A stretch of DNA of 34,194 nt from Candidatus Rokuibacteriota bacterium (GTDB lineage: Bacteria; Methylomirabilota; Methylomirabilia; Rokubacteriales; CSP1-6). The notes beneath the pieces were generated by a model. The model saw only the letters and a list, made by a program, of their open reading frames with translations, searched no databases and was not told where the DNA came from. Every line of letters starts with the position of its first letter. Position 1 is the first letter of the stretch. The stretch covers positions 1-34,194 of the forward strand of contig JACQWB010000226.1 in NCBI GenBank assembly GCA_016209385.1, in the 5' to 3' direction. This document shows positions 2,248 through 10,647 of the stretch, one piece after another. A program made the translations under genes and the position numbers.

Positions 2248-4017
2248 CTATGCTTCTTCCTCCTCGTCTCCGAGGTCGGTGCGGCCCTTCTTGCGCCGTC
2301 GCCGGTCCCGATGGTCGCGCGAGTCCACGGGCTCGACCTGAGCCGCCAACTCCTTCAGCGAGAGGCCAATACGCCGCTCCTGGGGCTCGACCCGGATGAC
2401 CATCAGCGTCAGCTCGTCGCCGACGTTGACGATGTCCTCCGGCCGGCTCACTGGGCGGGACGACATCTGGGAGATGTGCAGGAGCCCGTCCACCCCGGGC
2501 TCGAGCTCGACAAAGGCGCCGAAGTCGGCGAGACGGACGACCTTGCCGCGGACCCGGGTCCCCATCGGGTAGCGCTCCGCCACGGTCTCCCAGGGATCGG
2601 GCTGGAGCTGCTTCAGGCCCAGCGAGATGCGCTTGGCGTCGCGGTCGACGCTGAGGATCAGCGCCTCGACGGCCTGCCCCTTCTTGAGGACTTCGGACGG
2701 GTGGCCGATGTTTCGCGTCCAGGACAGGTCCGAGATGTGCAGGAGCCCGTCCACCCCCGGCTCGAGCTCGACGAAGGCGCCGAAGTCGGTGAGGTTCCTG
2801 ACCTTCCCCTGCACGCGCGTGCCGGCGCTGTAGCGCTGGTCGATCGTCGCCCAGGGGTCCGGCTCGACCTGCTTCATCCCCAGCGAGATGCGCTTGTGCG
2901 CCTTGTTGACGTCGAGCACCACCACGTCCACTTGATCGCCGACGTTGACGATCTTGGACGGGTGGCCGACGCGGCGCGTCCAGGACATCTCGGAGACGTG
3001 GACCAGCCCCTCCACGCCCGCCTCGAGCTCGACGAAGGCGCCGTAGTTGGTGAGACTCACCACCTTGCCGGTCACCTTGGCCCCGACCGGATACTTCGTG
3101 TCGACCACGGTCCACGGGTCGGAGGTCTTCTGTTTGTAGCCCAAGGAAACCCGGCCCGTTTCCCGGTCGAAATGCAGCACGACGACCTCCACCTGGTCGC
3201 CGACCTGGAAGATCTCCGAGGGGTGGCCGACCCGGCCCCAGGACATGTCGGTCACGTGCAGGAGGCCGTCGACGCCCCCGAGATCGATGAAGGCGCCGTA
3301 GTCGGTGATGTTCTTGACGGTGCCGGTGCACACCATCCCCTCGTGGAGAACCGCGAGCGTCTGTTTCCTGCGGTCCTCTCGGTCGTCTTCGAGCACGGCC
3401 CGGCGGGAGAGCACCACGTTCCCCCGGCGGCGGTTCAGCTTGATGACCTTGGCGCGGATCGTCTGGCCCACGAACGCGGCCAGATTCTTCACCGGGCGGA
3501 GGTCCACCTGCGACCCGGGCAGGAACGCCTTCACCCCAACGTCGACCGACAGGCCTCCCTTGACCACCTCGACCACGCGCCCTTCCACCGGCGCGCCGTG
3601 CTCGTAGGCGTGCGAGATACTGTCCCAGACCTTGATCTTGTCTGCCTTCTCTTTGGACAGGACGATGAAGCCCTCGGCATCCTCCTTGGCCTCCAGGTAC
3701 ACCTCGATCTCGTCGCCGATCCGGGGGACGGTACCGGCGCGGTGGAATTCCTCGATCGGAATCATCCCCTCGCTCTTGTACCCGACGTCCACGAGCACCT
3801 CGCCGTCCCCCACCTGGACGATCCGGCCACGGAGGACCTCGCCCTCCTCAAAGTCGGTGAACGCGTCGCGGAACCAGTCCTCCATGCGCTCTTCGGGCTC
3901 CGGGTTGTGCTTCTGGGGAGCGGTGCGCCTCGCCACCTCCTTCCGAGTCTCCCCCTCCTCGCGGGCCCCGCTCGCGTTCCCCGCGAGGGTTGTCGGCTGC
4001 TTCGCGTCGCTCTCCAT
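2248..4017 (-). CDS. rpsA: 30S ribosomal protein S1 (six S1 domains)
   Basis: S1 unwinds and delivers mRNA to the 30S subunit. The 589 aa protein has six S1 (OB-fold) repeats at about 58-122, 142-207, 226-297, 312-383, 397-470 and 484-557. The last four carry the canonical DFGAFVEL and GLLHISDLSW-type strands, while the first two are more divergent, as expected for the ribosome-docking repeats. The N-terminus has a 44-residue charged extension before the usual MEDWF start. I kept the upstream ATG because a perfect AAGGAGGT lies 9 nt before it, while nothing comparable precedes Met45. The C-terminus is a basic stretch followed by an acidic tail ending DEEEEA. It is 81 bases downstream of plsC, with a stem-loop in that gap, and is followed 3 nt later by sppA. 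Stop codon TAG. Confidence 0.97.
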   Translation of the reverse strand: MESDAKQPTTLAGNASGAREEGETRKEVARRTAPQKHNPEPEERMEDWFRDAFTDFEEGEVLRGRIVQVGDGEVLVDVGYKSEGMIPIEEFHRAGTVPRIGDEIEVYLEAKEDAEGFIVLSKEKADKIKVWDSISHAYEHGAPVEGRVVEVVKGGLSVDVGVKAFLPGSQVDLRPVKNLAAFVGQTIRAKVIKLNRRRGNVVLSRRAVLEDDREDRRKQTLAVLHEGMVCTGTVKNITDYGAFIDLGGVDGLLHVTDMSWGRVGHPSEIFQVGDQVEVVVLHFDRETGRVSLGYKQKTSDPWTVVDTKYPVGAKVTGKVVSLTNYGAFVELEAGVEGLVHVSEMSWTRRVGHPSKIVNVGDQVDVVVLDVNKAHKRISLGMKQVEPDPWATIDQRYSAGTRVQGKVRNLTDFGAFVELEPGVDGLLHISDLSWTRNIGHPSEVLKKGQAVEALILSVDRDAKRISLGLKQLQPDPWETVAERYPMGTRVRGKVVRLADFGAFVELEPGVDGLLHISQMSSRPVSRPEDIVNVGDELTLMVIRVEPQERRIGLSLKELAAQVEPVDSRDHRDRRRRKKGRTDLGDEEEEA

Positions 4018-4098: not shown

Positions 4099-4743
4099 TC
4101 AGGCCGTCCGGGCTGTCGCCTCCCAGCTCGGCTCGGCCCCGGCGTCTCGCACGCGGGCGATGGCGTTCATGATCTGCCGGCTCGCCTCCCGGTAGCGCTC
4201 CTTCTGTCCCCGTGCTCCCTCGCCGGCGAAGGCGAGTGGCGGCCCGAAGCTCACCCGGATCTTTCCCGGACGCGGGAACCACCCCCCGCGGGGGAGCACC
4301 CGGCCCGAGCCCGCGATGTACGCCGGGACCACCGGGGCGCCGCTCAGGACGGCGAGCATCCCGGCCCCGGGCTTCGCTTCCCCGAGCGTCCCCTCCTCGC
4401 CCCGCGTCCCCTCGGGAAAGACGAGCAGGGCGGCGCCGGACTCCAGGACCCGGAGCGCGACGCGGAGCGCGGCAGGATCCGCGCCTCCCCGCCGGACCGG
4501 CCGCGCGTGGAGCCTCGAGATCAGCCCGCCGAAGAAGGGGATCGAGAACAACTCCGCCTTCGCCAGGAAGTGCAGCGGTCGGGGAGCAGCCACGCCGATG
4601 ATCGGCGGATCGAGCACGCTCGCATGATTGGCCGCGATCAGCACCGGCCCCGTCGGCGGGATGTGTCCCGTTCCCCGGGCTTCGATCCGGAACAAGAGGC
4701 GCGCCAGCACGAACACGAACGTTTTCACGATCCGGTAGAGCAC
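4099..4743 (-). CDS. plsC: 1-acyl-sn-glycerol-3-phosphate acyltransferase (PlsC family)
   Basis: Acylates lysophosphatidic acid to phosphatidic acid at the inner membrane, the second acylation of phospholipid synthesis. The 214 aa protein is the usual size. The catalytic HX4D motif is NHASVLD (39-45), and the substrate-binding FPEGTR follows at about 109-114. The N-terminus is hydrophobic, as is common for membrane-associated PlsC. The start is a GTG inside the last codons of cmk (19 nt overlap), which suggests translational coupling. The substrate could be another lysophospholipid, since PlsC-fold enzymes are hard to tell apart by sequence. The aroA-cmk-plsC-rpsA order is seen in several bacterial groups and supports the assignment. 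Confidence 0.9.
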   Translation of the reverse strand: MLYRIVKTFVFVLARLLFRIEARGTGHIPPTGPVLIAANHASVLDPPIIGVAAPRPLHFLAKAELFSIPFFGGLISRLHARPVRRGGADPAALRVALRVLESGAALLVFPEGTRGEEGTLGEAKPGAGMLAVLSGAPVVPAYIAGSGRVLPRGGWFPRPGKIRVSFGPPLAFAGEGARGQKERYREASRQIMNAIARVRDAGAEPSWEATARTA

Positions 4744-5480
4744 TCGACCCTCCGCACGACCTCAAGCATCTGCGTCACGACTTGGTCGACCGATTTTCCC
4801 GTCGAGTCGATCACGACCGCCCCCGGGGGAACCACGAGGGGCGCCAGCGCGCGACCCCGATCCTGGAGGTCCCGCTGGGCGATCTCCTCGCGGACTTCCG
4901 GGAGGCTCCGGCGCGTCCCGCGCCCCTCGAGCTCGCGCCGGCGCCGCTCGGCGCGAACGACCTCGGCGGCGTCCAGGTAGAACTTCACGTCTGCGTCGGG
5001 GCAGACGACGCTGCCGGTGTCGCGACCTTCGAGCACGACGCCGCCGCGGGCCGCGAGACGCCGCTGGATCGGCGTCACCGTGTCCCTGACCGTCTTCAGC
5101 GCGGTCAGCCGTGAGGTGAGCTCGCCGACCTCCGGAGCCCGGATTTCCTCGCTCACGTCCCGGCCATCGAGCAGGACGCGCTCACCCCGGAGCTCCACGG
5201 TAGTCCGCTCCAGGAGGGCGCTGAGCGCTGGGCCATCCACCGGCGCCAGGCCTGCCCGCATGACCCGGAGGGCCAGCGCTCGGTACATGGCTCCCGTGTC
5301 GATGAGCTGGAAGCCCAGGCGCCCGGCCAGCTCCCGCGCCACGATGCTCTTTCCTGCCGCCGCGGGGCCGTCGATCGTGACCACCGGCGTTCTGGGGCGC
5401 GCCCGGCTCCCGCGGCGGGTCGCGGCGAGAGGTCCACGGCGTTTTCCCTGGACCGCCTTCGCCCGCCGGCTCGCGGTCAT
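4725..5480 (-). CDS. cmk: (d)CMP kinase (cytidylate kinase)
   Basis: Phosphorylates CMP and dCMP to the diphosphates in pyrimidine salvage. The P-loop GPAAAGKS lies at 38-45, the family motif DTGAMYRA at 61-68, and a GRDTGSVV segment further on contacts the nucleotide. An upstream in-frame GTG (5498) is possible, but the ATG at 5480 forms an ATGA overlap with the aroA stop, the pattern used throughout this cluster, so I chose 5480 (251 aa). Even so there is a roughly 30-residue Arg-rich N-terminal extension before the first strand, longer than in most Cmk proteins; its role is unknown. Overlaps plsC downstream. Confidence 0.94.
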   Translation of the reverse strand: MTASRRAKAVQGKRRGPLAATRRGSRARPRTPVVTIDGPAAAGKSIVARELAGRLGFQLIDTGAMYRALALRVMRAGLAPVDGPALSALLERTTVELRGERVLLDGRDVSEEIRAPEVGELTSRLTALKTVRDTVTPIQRRLAARGGVVLEGRDTGSVVCPDADVKFYLDAAEVVRAERRRRELEGRGTRRSLPEVREEIAQRDLQDRGRALAPLVVPPGAVVIDSTGKSVDQVVTQMLEVVRRVECSTGS

Positions 5481-6790
5481 GGTGCTGTCGTCACGCACGC
5501 GTCACCAGTGAGCGTCCGGAGCGTCGAAACGAAGTCGGGGAACGAGGTCGCGATGCAGGCGGTGTCCTCGATGACGGTCTCTCCCTCGGCCCGGAGCCCG
5601 GCGATCGCCAGAGCCATGGCGATGCGGTGGTCGCCGTGACTGCTGACCCGCGCGCCGGACAGCCGGGCGCCGCCCCGAATGACAAAGCCATCCTCCCGCT
5701 CCTCGATCCAGACGCCGAGCTTCCCCAGCTCCGATGTCAGCGTCGAAACCCGGTCGGACTCCTTGACGCGAAGCTCTCGGGCCCCGCTCACTTCGGTCAC
5801 GCCCTCGGCCGCGGCGGCGGCCACCGCGAGGACCGGCAACTCGTCGATGAGCCGAGGGACCCGCGAGCCCTCGACCCGCACGCCCCGAAGCCGGCTGCTC
5901 CGGACGGTCAGGGTCGCCGTCGGCTCGCCCTCGCTCGCCAGCTCGGCCACTCGGACGTCGGCGCCCATTTCCCTCAAAGCGTCGAGAAGCCCGGTGCGGG
6001 TCGGGTTCATCCCGACCCCTCGAATCGTCAGCTCGCTGTCGGGGACGACGCATGCGGCCACGAGGAAGAACGCCGCGGAGGAGAAGTCGCCGGGGACCTG
6101 GAGCCGCTGGCCCCTCAGCTCGCCTTCGGGGAAGAGCGTCACGGTGTGGGCGTCTCGCTCGATCCGCGCCCCGAAGCTCGAAAGCATCCGCTCGGTGTGA
6201 TCCCGCGACTGCTCCGGTTCCTCCACCGTGACCGGCGCATCCGCTGCGACCCCGGCCAGGAGCAGCGCCGACTTCACCTGTGCCGACGCCACGGAGAGCC
6301 GGTAACGCCCCCCGCGGAGCGGACGGCCGCCGCGGATCGCTAGCGGAAGGCGCGCTCCGTCCTGGCGCCCGACAACGGTCGCCCCCATCTCGCGGAGCGG
6401 GCGGGCCACCCGCTCCATCGGGCGCCGGCGGAGGGAGTCGTCCCCGCTGAGCACGCTCCAGAAGGGCTGGCTGGCCAGGAGCCCGAGGAGCAGGCGCGCC
6501 GACGTGCCCGAGTTCCCGCAGTCCAGGACACCGTCGGGCTCCTGAAAGCCTTGGAGCCCAACTCCGTCGATCCGGTACCGCCCCGGTTCCTTCCGAGTGA
6601 CTTCGACCCCGAGCGCCTGGAGGGCGCGGAGCGTGTTCAGGCAGTCCTCGGCTTCGAGGAAGCCCGACACCTCCGTCGGCCCGGAGGCGAGGGCGCCGAC
6701 GAGTGCCGCGCGGTGCGAGACGGACTTATCCCCGGCGACCCGGATGGCCCCGGTGAGACCGCGCGCCTGACGCACCACGAGCTGAGTCAC
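5477..6790 (-). CDS. aroA: 3-phosphoshikimate 1-carboxyvinyltransferase (EPSP synthase)
   Basis: Joins shikimate-3-phosphate and PEP, the penultimate step to chorismate. The 437 aa protein has the family landmarks: GDKSVSHRA (20-28) with the PEP-binding Lys22, CGNSGTSAR (91-99), LSGDDSLRRRPM (114-125), QVKSALLLAG (171-180), SRDHTERM (195-202) and KESDR (343-347). The active-site loop keeps Gly95, the counterpart of E. coli Gly96, rather than the Ala of naturally glyphosate-insensitive class II enzymes; this is a sequence observation, not a phenotype claim. The start is GTG with AAGGAG about 6 nt upstream. It sits 36 bases after tyrA and overlaps cmk by 4 nt (ATGA). Confidence 0.97.
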   Translation of the reverse strand: MTQLVVRQARGLTGAIRVAGDKSVSHRAALVGALASGPTEVSGFLEAEDCLNTLRALQALGVEVTRKEPGRYRIDGVGLQGFQEPDGVLDCGNSGTSARLLLGLLASQPFWSVLSGDDSLRRRPMERVARPLREMGATVVGRQDGARLPLAIRGGRPLRGGRYRLSVASAQVKSALLLAGVAADAPVTVEEPEQSRDHTERMLSSFGARIERDAHTVTLFPEGELRGQRLQVPGDFSSAAFFLVAACVVPDSELTIRGVGMNPTRTGLLDALREMGADVRVAELASEGEPTATLTVRSSRLRGVRVEGSRVPRLIDELPVLAVAAAAAEGVTEVSGARELRVKESDRVSTLTSELGKLGVWIEEREDGFVIRGGARLSGARVSSHGDHRIAMALAIAGLRAEGETVIEDTACIATSFPDFVSTLRTLTGDACVTTAP

Positions 6791-6826
6791 GGGAACTCCT
6801 TCGATTCGGGACTCATCGCGCGACCC

Positions 6827-7672
6827 TCAGAGACCCTGCCGGGCGGCCCGGATCCGGCCAAGGGCCGCTTCGAGTCGAGAGGCGTCGCCGGCGGCGATGA
6901 GGCGTTCCAGGTCGGCCAGCGCGGCGCGGAACGCCACCAGCGACTGGGCGAGCGCCTCGCGGTTTCCGAGGAAGATGTCGCGCCAGATCCTCGGGTCTGA
7001 GGCCGCGATGCGCGTGGTGTCGGCGAAGCCACGCCCGGCGAAGCCAACCGCCGCGGGATCCGAGCGAAGCACCGCATCGACCAGCGCGAACGCGAGCAAG
7101 TGCGGCAGGTGGCTGACCATTCCGACCACGCGGTCGTGGAGCTCGGGGTCCAGAATCACCACGCGGCCGCCGAGGGCCTGCCAGAACTCCGAGACCCGCT
7201 TCACGGCGCCCGCGTCGCTGGCCTCGGTCGGGGTCAGGATCACGGTCGCCCCGACAAACAGGTCAGCCCGGGCCTGACCGTACCCGCTCTGCTCCGAGCC
7301 CGCCATCGGGTGACCACCGACGAACGCCAGCGGACGGGAGACGGCCAACGCCTCGGCCACGCTCACGATGCGCCCTTTCGTGCTCCCCACGTCCGTGACG
7401 GTTGCGTCCGGATCCGCCACGCGCCAGACGTCCGGGAGCAGCGCTTCGATCGTGGCCACCGGGGTAGCGAGCAGGACGACGTCGACACCCCGCACCCCCT
7501 CGCCGACGTCGACGGTGGCGCGGTCCACGACACCGTCGGCCACCGCGCGCGCCAGCGCGTCGGGCCGTCGGCCGATCGCCACGATCTCCCGCGCCACTCC
7601 CCGCCGCCGTGCGGCCAGGGCTGCCGATCCGCCGAGCAGCCCGAGCCCGACCACGGCGAGCCGACGGATCAT
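6827..7672 (-). CDS. tyrA: Prephenate (or arogenate) dehydrogenase, TyrA family
   Basis: Oxidative decarboxylation of prephenate or arogenate towards tyrosine. The 281 aa single-domain form has an N-terminal Rossmann fold with GLGLLGGS (9-16), the substrate and catalytic motif GGHPMAGSEQSG (119-130), and VSHLPH (186-191) in the helical dimerisation domain. There is no fused chorismate mutase and no C-terminal ACT domain, so allosteric tyrosine inhibition through ACT is not expected. The ATG at 7672 overlaps the hisC stop as ATGA. Whether NAD or NADP and prephenate or arogenate are used cannot be settled here. Its position directly after a HisC-type aminotransferase and PheA supports a Phe/Tyr operon. 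Confidence 0.95.
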   Translation of the reverse strand: MIRRLAVVGLGLLGGSAALAARRRGVAREIVAIGRRPDALARAVADGVVDRATVDVGEGVRGVDVVLLATPVATIEALLPDVWRVADPDATVTDVGSTKGRIVSVAEALAVSRPLAFVGGHPMAGSEQSGYGQARADLFVGATVILTPTEASDAGAVKRVSEFWQALGGRVVILDPELHDRVVGMVSHLPHLLAFALVDAVLRSDPAAVGFAGRGFADTTRIAASDPRIWRDIFLGNREALAQSLVAFRAALADLERLIAAGDASRLEAALGRIRAARQGL

Positions 7673-8784
7673 GAGCGGCGGACCTCGCCGAGCACTTTTC
7701 TGAGCGCCTTGACGAGCCGGCGGTTCTCCTCCGGGGTCCCCACCGTGATGCGCAGCGCCGTCTCCATGCCGAAGCTCGTCAGCGGGCGAACGATGACGCC
7801 CTCGCGCAGCAGCCGCTGGTAGATCTCGGTGGCGTTTTGCCCCACGTCGACCAGGATGAAGTTGGCTCGGGAGGGAACCGCGGAGATCCCCATCGAGGCG
7901 AACTCGTCGTACAGGTACGCCTTCCCCGCCTCGTTGAGACGCAGGCACTCGAGGACGTGGGCGTCGTCTTCGAGGGCCGCCAGCGCCGCCACCTGCGCCA
8001 GCGAGTTGACGTTGAACGGCTGGCGGATCCGGTGGAGCAGGGCCACCGCGTCGGGATCCGCGATCCCGTACCCCAGCCGCAACCCGGCCAGGCTCGCCGC
8101 CTTCGAGAACGTCCGGAGGATGACGACCTTCCGTCCCTGCCGCATGCAGCCCAGCGAGTCGGGGAAGTCCGGCCCCTGGGCGAACGCCATGTAGGCCTCG
8201 TCGAACACCACGATGACGCTCTCGGGAGTCCGATCCATGAAGGCGGCCACCTCGTCGCGGGTGACGATGGTGGCGGTCGGGTTGTTGGGATTTGCGATGA
8301 ACACGAGCTTGGTCAGCGGCGTGACCGCCCGGGCCATGGCGTCGAGGTCGAGCCGGTGCTCCTTCAGCGTGACGACGACCCGGATGCCACCGGCTGCCTG
8401 AACGATCATCGGGTAGACGACGAAGGAGGGGTGCGGGATCACCGCCTCCTCCCCCGGCCGCAAGAACGCGCGGACGACCAGCTCGATGAGCTCGTTCGAG
8501 CCGTTGCCCAGGACGATATGGTCGGGGCTGACGCCGTGGTGACGGGCGAGGGCCTGGCGCAGGTAGAAGCCGCTCCCGTCCGGGTAGCGGTTGAGCTGGC
8601 CGAGGGCCGCCATAATCGCCTTCTGCACCCGCTCGGAGGGGGGCAACGGGTTCTCGTTGGACGCGAGCTAGATGGCGTCGGAGATCCCCAGCTCCCGCTC
8701 GAGCTCCTCGATCGGTTTGCCGGGCTCGTAGGGGGCAATCCCCAGGATGTGTTCGTTGGCCAGGGACTCCCAGGATGTGGACAT
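7669..8784 (-). CDS. hisC: HisC-family aminotransferase interrupted by an in-frame amber codon
   Basis: A PLP-dependent fold-type I aminotransferase of the histidinol-phosphate family. In this aromatic operon it probably transaminates phenylpyruvate, 4-hydroxyphenylpyruvate or prephenate, possibly besides histidinol phosphate. The full frame runs from the ATG at 8784, which has AAGGAG 6 nt upstream, and would encode 371 residues, normal for HisC. Codons 1-38 give a typical HisC N-terminus (ending ELGISDAI), codon 39 is TAG, and the frame resumes at once with LASNENPLPPSERV. The rest is intact: VLGNGSNELIEL, ANPNNPT, FDEAY and TFSKAASLAGLRLGYG with the PLP lysine. AAG (Lys) to TAG would need one base change. 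Reinitiation at the TTG at 8646 would lose the conserved SNENP segment. It could be a sequencing or assembly error, a recent nonsense mutation or, less likely, readthrough. Overlaps tyrA by ATGA. Confidence 0.9.
8668..8670 (-). other. In-frame TAG (amber) codon 39 of hisC
   Basis: The plus strand reads CTA; on the coding strand this is TAG between codons for DAI and LASNENP. It is in frame with both the SD-supported ATG at 8784 (38 sense codons earlier) and the remaining 332 codons. The family normally has Lys here. Confidence 0.92.
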
Positions 8785-8790
8785 GGATCA

Positions 8791-8796
8791 CTCCTT
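8791..8796 (-). promoter_or_regulatory. Shine-Dalgarno of hisC
   Basis: Minus-strand AAGGAG, 6 nt before the ATG at 8784 and overlapping the pheA stop codon. It shows that translation is meant to begin upstream of the amber codon. Confidence 0.75.
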
Positions 8797-9856
8797 AGGC
8801 GGCCGGATAGGACCCGAGAAACTTGAGAAAGAGGCATCGCTCGCGGACGTCGGCGAGCGCGGCCTGAACGGGAGGGGCGACCTGGTGCCCCTCGAAGTCC
8901 ACGAAGAAGACGTACTCCCACGGGCGACGCTTGGTCGGTCGCGATTCGATCTTGGTCAGGTTGAGCCCGTGACGGGCAAAGGGCTCGAGGAACTTGGCCA
9001 GGGCCCCCACCTCGTGCTTGATCGAGCAGAGGATCGAGGTCTTATCTTTCCCCGACGGCGGCATCACGCGCTGTCCGAGCACCAGGAAGCGGGTCGAGTT
9101 GGACGAGTTGTCCTCGATCCGGGTCTGGAGGACGGGGAGGCTGTAGAGGCGGGCCGCGAGCTCCGAGGCGATGGCCGCCACTGTCGGGTCGGCCGCGGCG
9201 CGCTCGGCGGCCACCGCCGTGGAAGAGACTTCCGCCGTTCCGGCCTCGGGCAGGTTGACGGCCAGCCACTGCCGGCACTGCGCGAGGGCCTGGGGGTGGG
9301 AGCATACAGTCCGGACAGCGGCGAGATCCAGCGCTCGGGACAGCAGGTGATGGGTGATCTCGAGGAGGATCTCGCCCGCGATCAGGACGTTTGAGTCGAT
9401 CAGCCGGTCGAGGGTCAGGTTGACCGAGCCCTCAGTGGAATTCTCGACCGGCACCACGCCGAACTCGGCCTGGCCTTTTTCGACCGCATCGAAGATCTCG
9501 CCGATGCTCAACCTGGGGGCGAAGTGCGCCGAGGATCCGAACCGCAGGGTGGCTGCCTGATGGGTGAACGTGGCCGGAGGGCCGAGGTACGCGACTTGGA
9601 GCGGCTGTTCCAGCGCCCGTGACGCCGACAGGATCTCCCGCCAGACGGCCCTGATCCCGTCGGCCGAGTACGGCCCGGAGTTCAGCCTCAGGAGCCGATC
9701 GATGATCTCCGACTCACGCTCCGGGACATAGTACGGGAGCTCCTGCTCCCGCTTGAGCTCTCCGATCCGGAGGGCCGCGGCTGCGCGCTGGTTGAGGAGG
9801 CTGAGGATCTGCTGGTCGAGGTCATTGATCCTGGAACGCCATTCGTCCAGGTCCAT
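8795..9856 (-). CDS. pheA: Bifunctional chorismate mutase / prephenate dehydratase (P-protein)
   Basis: Converts chorismate to prephenate and then phenylpyruvate, committing carbon to phenylalanine. The 353 aa chain has three domains: an AroQ-type helical chorismate mutase (about 1-82), prephenate dehydratase (about 87-265) with PVENSTEGSV (136-145) and the catalytic NSSNSTRF (250-257), and a C-terminal ACT domain (about 272-350) with the phenylalanine-sensing motifs GALAKFL (284-290) and ESRP (304-307). Feedback inhibition by Phe is therefore expected. ATG start with AGGAGC about 5 nt upstream. It is the first gene of the aromatic operon, after a 74-base gap with a promoter-like pair; hisC follows 10 nt later. 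Confidence 0.97.
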   Translation of the reverse strand: MDLDEWRSRINDLDQQILSLLNQRAAAALRIGELKREQELPYYVPERESEIIDRLLRLNSGPYSADGIRAVWREILSASRALEQPLQVAYLGPPATFTHQAATLRFGSSAHFAPRLSIGEIFDAVEKGQAEFGVVPVENSTEGSVNLTLDRLIDSNVLIAGEILLEITHHLLSRALDLAAVRTVCSHPQALAQCRQWLAVNLPEAGTAEVSSTAVAAERAAADPTVAAIASELAARLYSLPVLQTRIEDNSSNSTRFLVLGQRVMPPSGKDKTSILCSIKHEVGALAKFLEPFARHGLNLTKIESRPTKRRPWEYVFFVDFEGHQVAPPVQAALADVRERCLFLKFLGSYPAA

Positions 9857-9896
9857 AGAAGCTCCTGACCCTGCTGACTATCCACACAACCAAGTC

Positions 9897-9925
9897 ATCT
9901 TACTAGAATCCTCCCGGGTGCGCAA
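9897..9925 (-). promoter_or_regulatory. Putative promoter of the pheA-hisC-tyrA-aroA operon
   Basis: On the minus strand TTGCGC (9920-9925) and TAAGAT (9897-9902) are separated by exactly 17 nt, about 40 nt upstream of the pheA ATG, in the only gap between rluB and pheA. Spacing and place are good; the -35 match is poor (three of six). Confidence 0.4.
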
Positions 9926-9930
9926 GGCCG

Positions 9931-10647
9931 TCAACCCTCGGGGATAGCCCGCAGACGCCGGACCTCCTCGGCGGTCAGCGGCCGCACGGCTCCCTGCGCG
10001 AGGCGGCCCAGGCGCAGCGGGCCGAACTCGACGCGGCGAAGCCGCACCACCCGATGGCCCAGCGCCGCGCAGAAGCGCTTCACCTCGCGGTAGCGCCCCT
10101 CGGTGAAGGTGAGCCTGAGCCAGCTCGTCGTCCGTGTGTGACGGAGGAGGCCGACCTCAGTGGGCCTGGCCACGCCATCTTCGAGGAGCGTACCCCGGCG
10201 GAAGTAGTCGAGCTCGTCAGCGCCCACGCGGCCTTCGACCTCGGCCTCGTAGACCCGCGGGACTCCGAACCGCGGATGGAGCAGACGATTGGCGAGCTGG
10301 CCATCGTTGGTCAGCAAGAGGAGTCCTTCGCAGTCGAAATCGAGCCGTCCGACCGGAAAGACCCGCCCCTGCTTCCCCCGGACGAGGTCGAGCACAACCG
10401 GGCGCCGTTGCGGGTCCTGGCGCGTGGTCACGTAACCCGGGGGCTTGTGGAGGAGCAGGTAGCGCTTCGGTTCGGGGGGCGGGATCGGCGTGCCGTCCAC
10501 CACGATCCGGTCGCGGTACGGGTCGGCCAGTGCGCCGGGCGTCGTGACCACCTTCCCGTTCACGGTCACTCGCCCCTCGGCGATGAGCCGCTCGCTACCC
10601 CGACGGGAGGCTAGCCCCGCCTGAGCCAGGACTTTCTGGAGGCGCAT
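9931..10647 (-). CDS. rluB: 23S rRNA pseudouridine synthase, RluB/RsuA family
   Basis: Isomerises specific uridines in rRNA to pseudouridine; RluB acts at position 2605 of 23S rRNA in E. coli. An N-terminal S4 RNA-binding domain (about 1-58, MRLQKVLAQAGLASRR) is followed by the catalytic domain with GRLDFDCEGLLLLTNDG (100-116); Asp103 is the nucleophile. A longer frame reaches back to 10740, but those 31 residues are low-complexity Arg/Pro and lie inside scpB, so I start at the ATG at 10647, giving 238 aa. It overlaps scpB by 53 nt. The scpA-scpB-rluB order is common in bacteria and favours RluB over RsuA or RluE, though exact target specificity is not proven by sequence. Confidence 0.92.
   Translation of the reverse strand: MRLQKVLAQAGLASRRGSERLIAEGRVTVNGKVVTTPGALADPYRDRIVVDGTPIPPPEPKRYLLLHKPPGYVTTRQDPQRRPVVLDLVRGKQGRVFPVGRLDFDCEGLLLLTNDGQLANRLLHPRFGVPRVYEAEVEGRVGADELDYFRRGTLLEDGVARPTEVGLLRHTRTTSWLRLTFTEGRYREVKRFCAALGHRVVRLRRVEFGPLRLGRLAQGAVRPLTAEEVRRLRAIPEG

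Follow-up and report, generated by a model that had tools for sequence, protein, structure and literature searches.

A lone in-frame TAG in a hisC-type aminotransferase gene of an aromatic supraoperon, probably a single wrong base in a draft genome

The window analysed here, 34,194 nt of DNA making up the whole of contig C226, contains a hisC-type aminotransferase gene that is interrupted by one in-frame TAG. We infer that this codon most probably stems from one erroneous base, TAG standing in place of AAG in the consensus or assembly of an uncurated draft metagenome. The TAG letters are present in the sequence, they occur at this site in none of the relatives compared, the gene is otherwise almost perfectly conserved, and the same gene has suffered local assembly damage in sister assemblies. 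Their cause is most likely an ordinary one, as a matter of probability and not of proof. With the base corrected, the organism would probably carry an ordinary intact hisHb-type gene within a standard pheA > hisHb > tyrA > aroA > cmk > rpsA supraoperon.

The gene occupies 7669..8784 on the minus strand and belongs to the histidinol-phosphate/aromatic aminotransferase family. Its opening reads TAAGGAGTGATCCATG, with the ATG at 8784-8782. The TAA stop of pheA runs into a putative AGGAG-type ribosome-binding site immediately ahead of this start (TAAGGAGTGATCC-ATG; 8785..8797), in agreement with the original prediction of a Shine–Dalgarno-supported ATG at 8784. The codons around the stop are GAC GCC ATC TAG CTC GCG TCC AAC GAG AAC CCG, in which TAG lies at 8670-8668. 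As predicted, this is codon 39 and is followed by 332 open codons; it is the sole stop ahead of the terminal TGA (7671-7669). When the TAG was read as Lys, the read-through protein scored 365.8 bits against the TIGR01141 hisC model, above the cut-off of 276.55, and it shared 75–83 % identity with intact full-length orthologues present in nearly every genome of the family. The model score and these orthologues together rule out a chance arrangement of open reading frames. The sequence as given is accordingly an interrupted member of HisC/HisHb (TIGR01141), its frame broken at codon 39. The affected residue is the conserved Lys of the I-K-L-A-S-N-E-N-P motif near the N-terminus of the HisC family. 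It is distinct from the predicted PLP-binding Lys, codon 228 (AAG; 8101..8103) in the TFSKAASLAG / SKA motif, which is intact.

The position equivalent to codon 39 was compared across 109 related genes. It was AAG in 95, AAA in 13 and off-register in one, giving Lys in 108 of 109 and upholding the earlier placement of the stop at a conserved Lys; TAG was found in 0 of the 109. The lone relative without Lys (L144, Pro) seems to reflect a motif matched out of register ('TLPYC-P-LRTNESA') rather than a homologous residue. In the closest orthologues (83 % identity) the stretch is GAC GCC ATC AAG CTC GCC TCC, against GAC GCC ATC TAG CTC GCG TCC here. Since AAG is the codon both in these orthologues and in most of the relatives, a single A-to-T change, as originally proposed, suffices to explain the stop. 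G001 (64 % complete), the one available genome of the same genus, could not serve as the nearest control because its contig ends ~15 codons into hisC. Most of the in-frame stops first reported in other HisC-family matches either disappeared on re-alignment or were C-terminal, where the alignment overruns the gene’s own stop. The only such match to retain a mid-gene in-frame stop was a paralogue in G021 (L178, contig C25; query position 275). A small genome of the same family (G020; 1.7 Mb, 86 % complete) lacks a close HisC match, the best having E 1.1e-20, and is possibly reduced.

Apart from the stop, the gene is as constrained as its intact counterparts. Of the 171 columns that show no variation across 31 Rokubacteria relatives, two differ in the window, namely the TAG and R316Q, so that 169 of the 170 other family-invariant residues are kept. 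There is no gap, frameshift or second stop in hisC. Relative to its nearest relative, dN and dS were 0.114 and 0.80 (dN/dS about 0.14), a ratio resembling that of intact pairs (e.g. 0.139 and 0.73). A search of hisC for signs of an established pseudogene, namely further stops, frameshifts and relaxed constraint, found none. Neutral evolution would be expected to produce about 390 detectable changes for each substitution per site, 364 of them at invariant codons and 27 as new stops, and one was seen (R316Q). With neutrality assumed and the terminal branch taken as about half of dS, any neglect of hisC would be confined to at most roughly the last 3–5 % of the terminal branch, which is a rough estimate. 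A near-zero age is also the expected appearance of a sequencing or assembly error.

The neighbouring genes lie on the same strand. Upstream is an intact pheA (chorismate mutase/prephenate dehydratase; 8795..9856), and downstream are an intact tyrA-type prephenate dehydrogenase gene (6827..7672), an intact aroA (EPSP synthase; 5477..6790), an intact cmk-like gene (4725..5498) and an rpsA-like gene (2248..4017), whose own TAG lies just ahead of the ATG of the next gene, as expected of an ordinary stop. The gene order pheA-hisHb-tyrA-aroA-cmk-rpsA is that of the HisHb supraoperon, with pheA, tyrA and aroA assigned by HMM, cmk by sequence reading and synteny, and rpsA by sequence reading; one acyltransferase-like ORF intervenes between cmk and rpsA. 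The stop of hisC and the start of tyrA share bases (ATGA), which may couple the translation of tyrA to that of hisC; if the TAG is real, expression of tyrA and aroA could suffer. A consensus scan of the coding strand across window positions 5400-10000 found no sigma-70-like promoter.

The genome was also searched for another HisC or aromatic aminotransferase gene. A second TIGR01141-scoring HisC-class copy, intact and 42 % identical, was found on contig C244, together with 11 further PF00155 matches. The his operon on contig C82 (hisG, hisD, hisB, hisH, hisA, hisF) does not include a hisC. A 420-aa ATPase-like ORF lies between hisB and hisH on this contig (L165:2745-4004) and is missing at the equivalent place in G030 (L162). 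Nearly all relatives retain both the orthologue and the paralogue of hisC, so the two HisC-class copies are probably not freely interchangeable. The expectation that loss of the gene would be very costly is weakened by the intact copy on C244 and by the cases of P. syringae, P. fluorescens and P. putida, in which the corresponding supraoperon has naturally lost hisHb (PMC1173090).

The draft, apparently a Rokubacteria metagenome assembly, comprises 4.57 Mb in 310 contigs, is 95 % complete and 3 % contaminated, and has a contig break within the essential gene rho. In three other Rokubacteria drafts, the orthologous hisC is itself locally misassembled or frame-broken: it is present as a scrambled, frame-shifted duplicate in AR9 (L106/L186), shows a partial N-terminal duplication in AR30 (L100) and carries a deletion and a frame break in G035 (L187). 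Local assembly errors are a known problem of uncurated metagenome-assembled genomes (MAGs), where they give rise to incorrect gene sequences (PMC7111523).

Three origins of the TAG had been put forward, namely a sequence error, a very recent loss and programmed or suppressor readthrough; the first two survive and the third finds no support. Readthrough of the codon by a suppressor tRNA, loss of RF1 or a programmed signal would yield a full-length enzyme and would accord with the sequence after the stop being as constrained as in intact relatives, but that conservation is equally expected under an error or a young mutation. TAG terminates seven other genes of the window (sppA, rpsA, lpxI, lpxD, ompH, scpB and bamA), five of which had been named originally, and no relative has TAG at the site. 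Internal stops were absent from the other listed genes of the window, as were in-frame stops from 105 ABC-transporter and 12 other aminotransferase-family matches across the genome (about 115 conserved-domain matches), which points to one isolated base and bears out the earlier judgement that wholesale recoding is unlikely. The searches for an amber suppressor tRNA and PylS revealed no CUA anticodon among the tRNA matches, a set that is incomplete, as is the draft, so that this absence is not proof, and a best PylS match of 26.7 bits, far below the cut-off of 178.15. Stop-codon recoding was rejected on these grounds. Two weak RNA features were observed alongside: a tRNA-like match at C74:2403-2461, not called by ARAGORN and by eye a degenerate tRNA-Arg remnant with anticodon TCT and not CTA, and a tmRNA-like 3' end at C81:8265-8350, likewise judged by eye. 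One striking point in favour of readthrough is that the assembly lacks the RF1 gene prfA: the TIGR00019 model has a single match here, an RF2-like protein (SPF motif), while prfA scores above the cut-off in 37 of 40 family genomes. In the relative G030 (L162:4793-10099), prfA sits between rho and hisG-hisD-hisB. Here, rho is cut off by the end of contig C178 (position 1), and C82 begins (position 1) just upstream of hisG. The prfA neighbourhood falls between these contig ends, so the remainder of rho, prfA and everything as far as hisG are missing as one block, and the absence of prfA is an assembly gap and not a demonstrated loss. Because prfA falls in this gap, TAG serves as an ordinary stop and no other in-frame TAGs were seen, a lineage truly without RF1, tolerating UAG as a sense or ambiguous codon and making HisHb by readthrough, is very unlikely. 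Readthrough by any route is highly improbable. No literature was found on Rokubacteria and the genetic code.

The artefacts in the same gene of AR9, AR30 and G035, combined with the known propagation of MAG errors, favour a single wrong base, as do the fragmentation of the draft, the Lys in relatives and the constraint on the rest of the gene. Against an error, the bases flanking the TAG align cleanly with relatives and show no scramble, a single substitution is less typical of local misassembly, and the artefacts in the sister drafts are structural rather than point errors. A very recent nonsense mutation, in a strain or dominant population variant without this aminotransferase, is the second reading, less probable than an error yet quite plausible. 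It would require transamination to be supplied by the C244 paralogue and other aminotransferases, and tyrA and aroA to be expressed well enough despite any polarity. Such a mutation would account for the clean substitution of AAG by TAG, and the intact C244 copy with the further PF00155 matches, the pseudomonad losses of hisHb and the small genome G020 would fit with the gene being dispensable. Set against this are the retention of both copies in nearly all relatives, the his operon on C82 that lacks a hisC, and the absence of any trace of decay, which leaves only the small final part of the terminal branch estimated above and so calls for good timing. A shorter functional enzyme starting downstream of the TAG, at TTG 8646 or a later ATG, is a very remote prospect. 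The open frame from TTG 8646 would encode 325 aa, but such a protein would lack the conserved N-terminus with its SNENP, alignments to the orthologues of nearly all relatives begin at residue 1, and no ribosome-binding site was seen by eye ahead of TTG 8646.

If the base is wrong, as is preferred here, the case illustrates how the call of one base in an uncurated metagenome draft can mimic gene loss or recoding. If the TAG is real, a predicted aminotransferase of probably broad specificity would have been lost very recently from an otherwise intact aromatic supraoperon while an intact paralogue remained, a modest case of redundancy like those known from pseudomonads.

Among known systems, UAG suppression and recoding, as in pyrrolysine systems and RF1-less codes, share with this gene an in-frame TAG followed by a conserved frame; they differ in that here neither a CUA tRNA nor PylS was found, TAG serves elsewhere as a normal stop and relatives do not share the one in hisC. 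Sequence errors in draft MAGs (PMC7111523) resemble it as an isolated disruption in an otherwise conserved gene of an uncurated, fragmented draft whose sister drafts have damaged copies, although the disruption here is a lone base substitution and that in the sister drafts is structural. The supraoperon described in PMC1173090 has the same order of pheA, a hisC-like gene, tyrA, aroA (EPSP synthase; aroF in PMC1173090), cmk and rpsA and the same enzyme family, and the arrangement in the window departs from it in the acyltransferase-like ORF and in the one in-frame TAG in hisHb.
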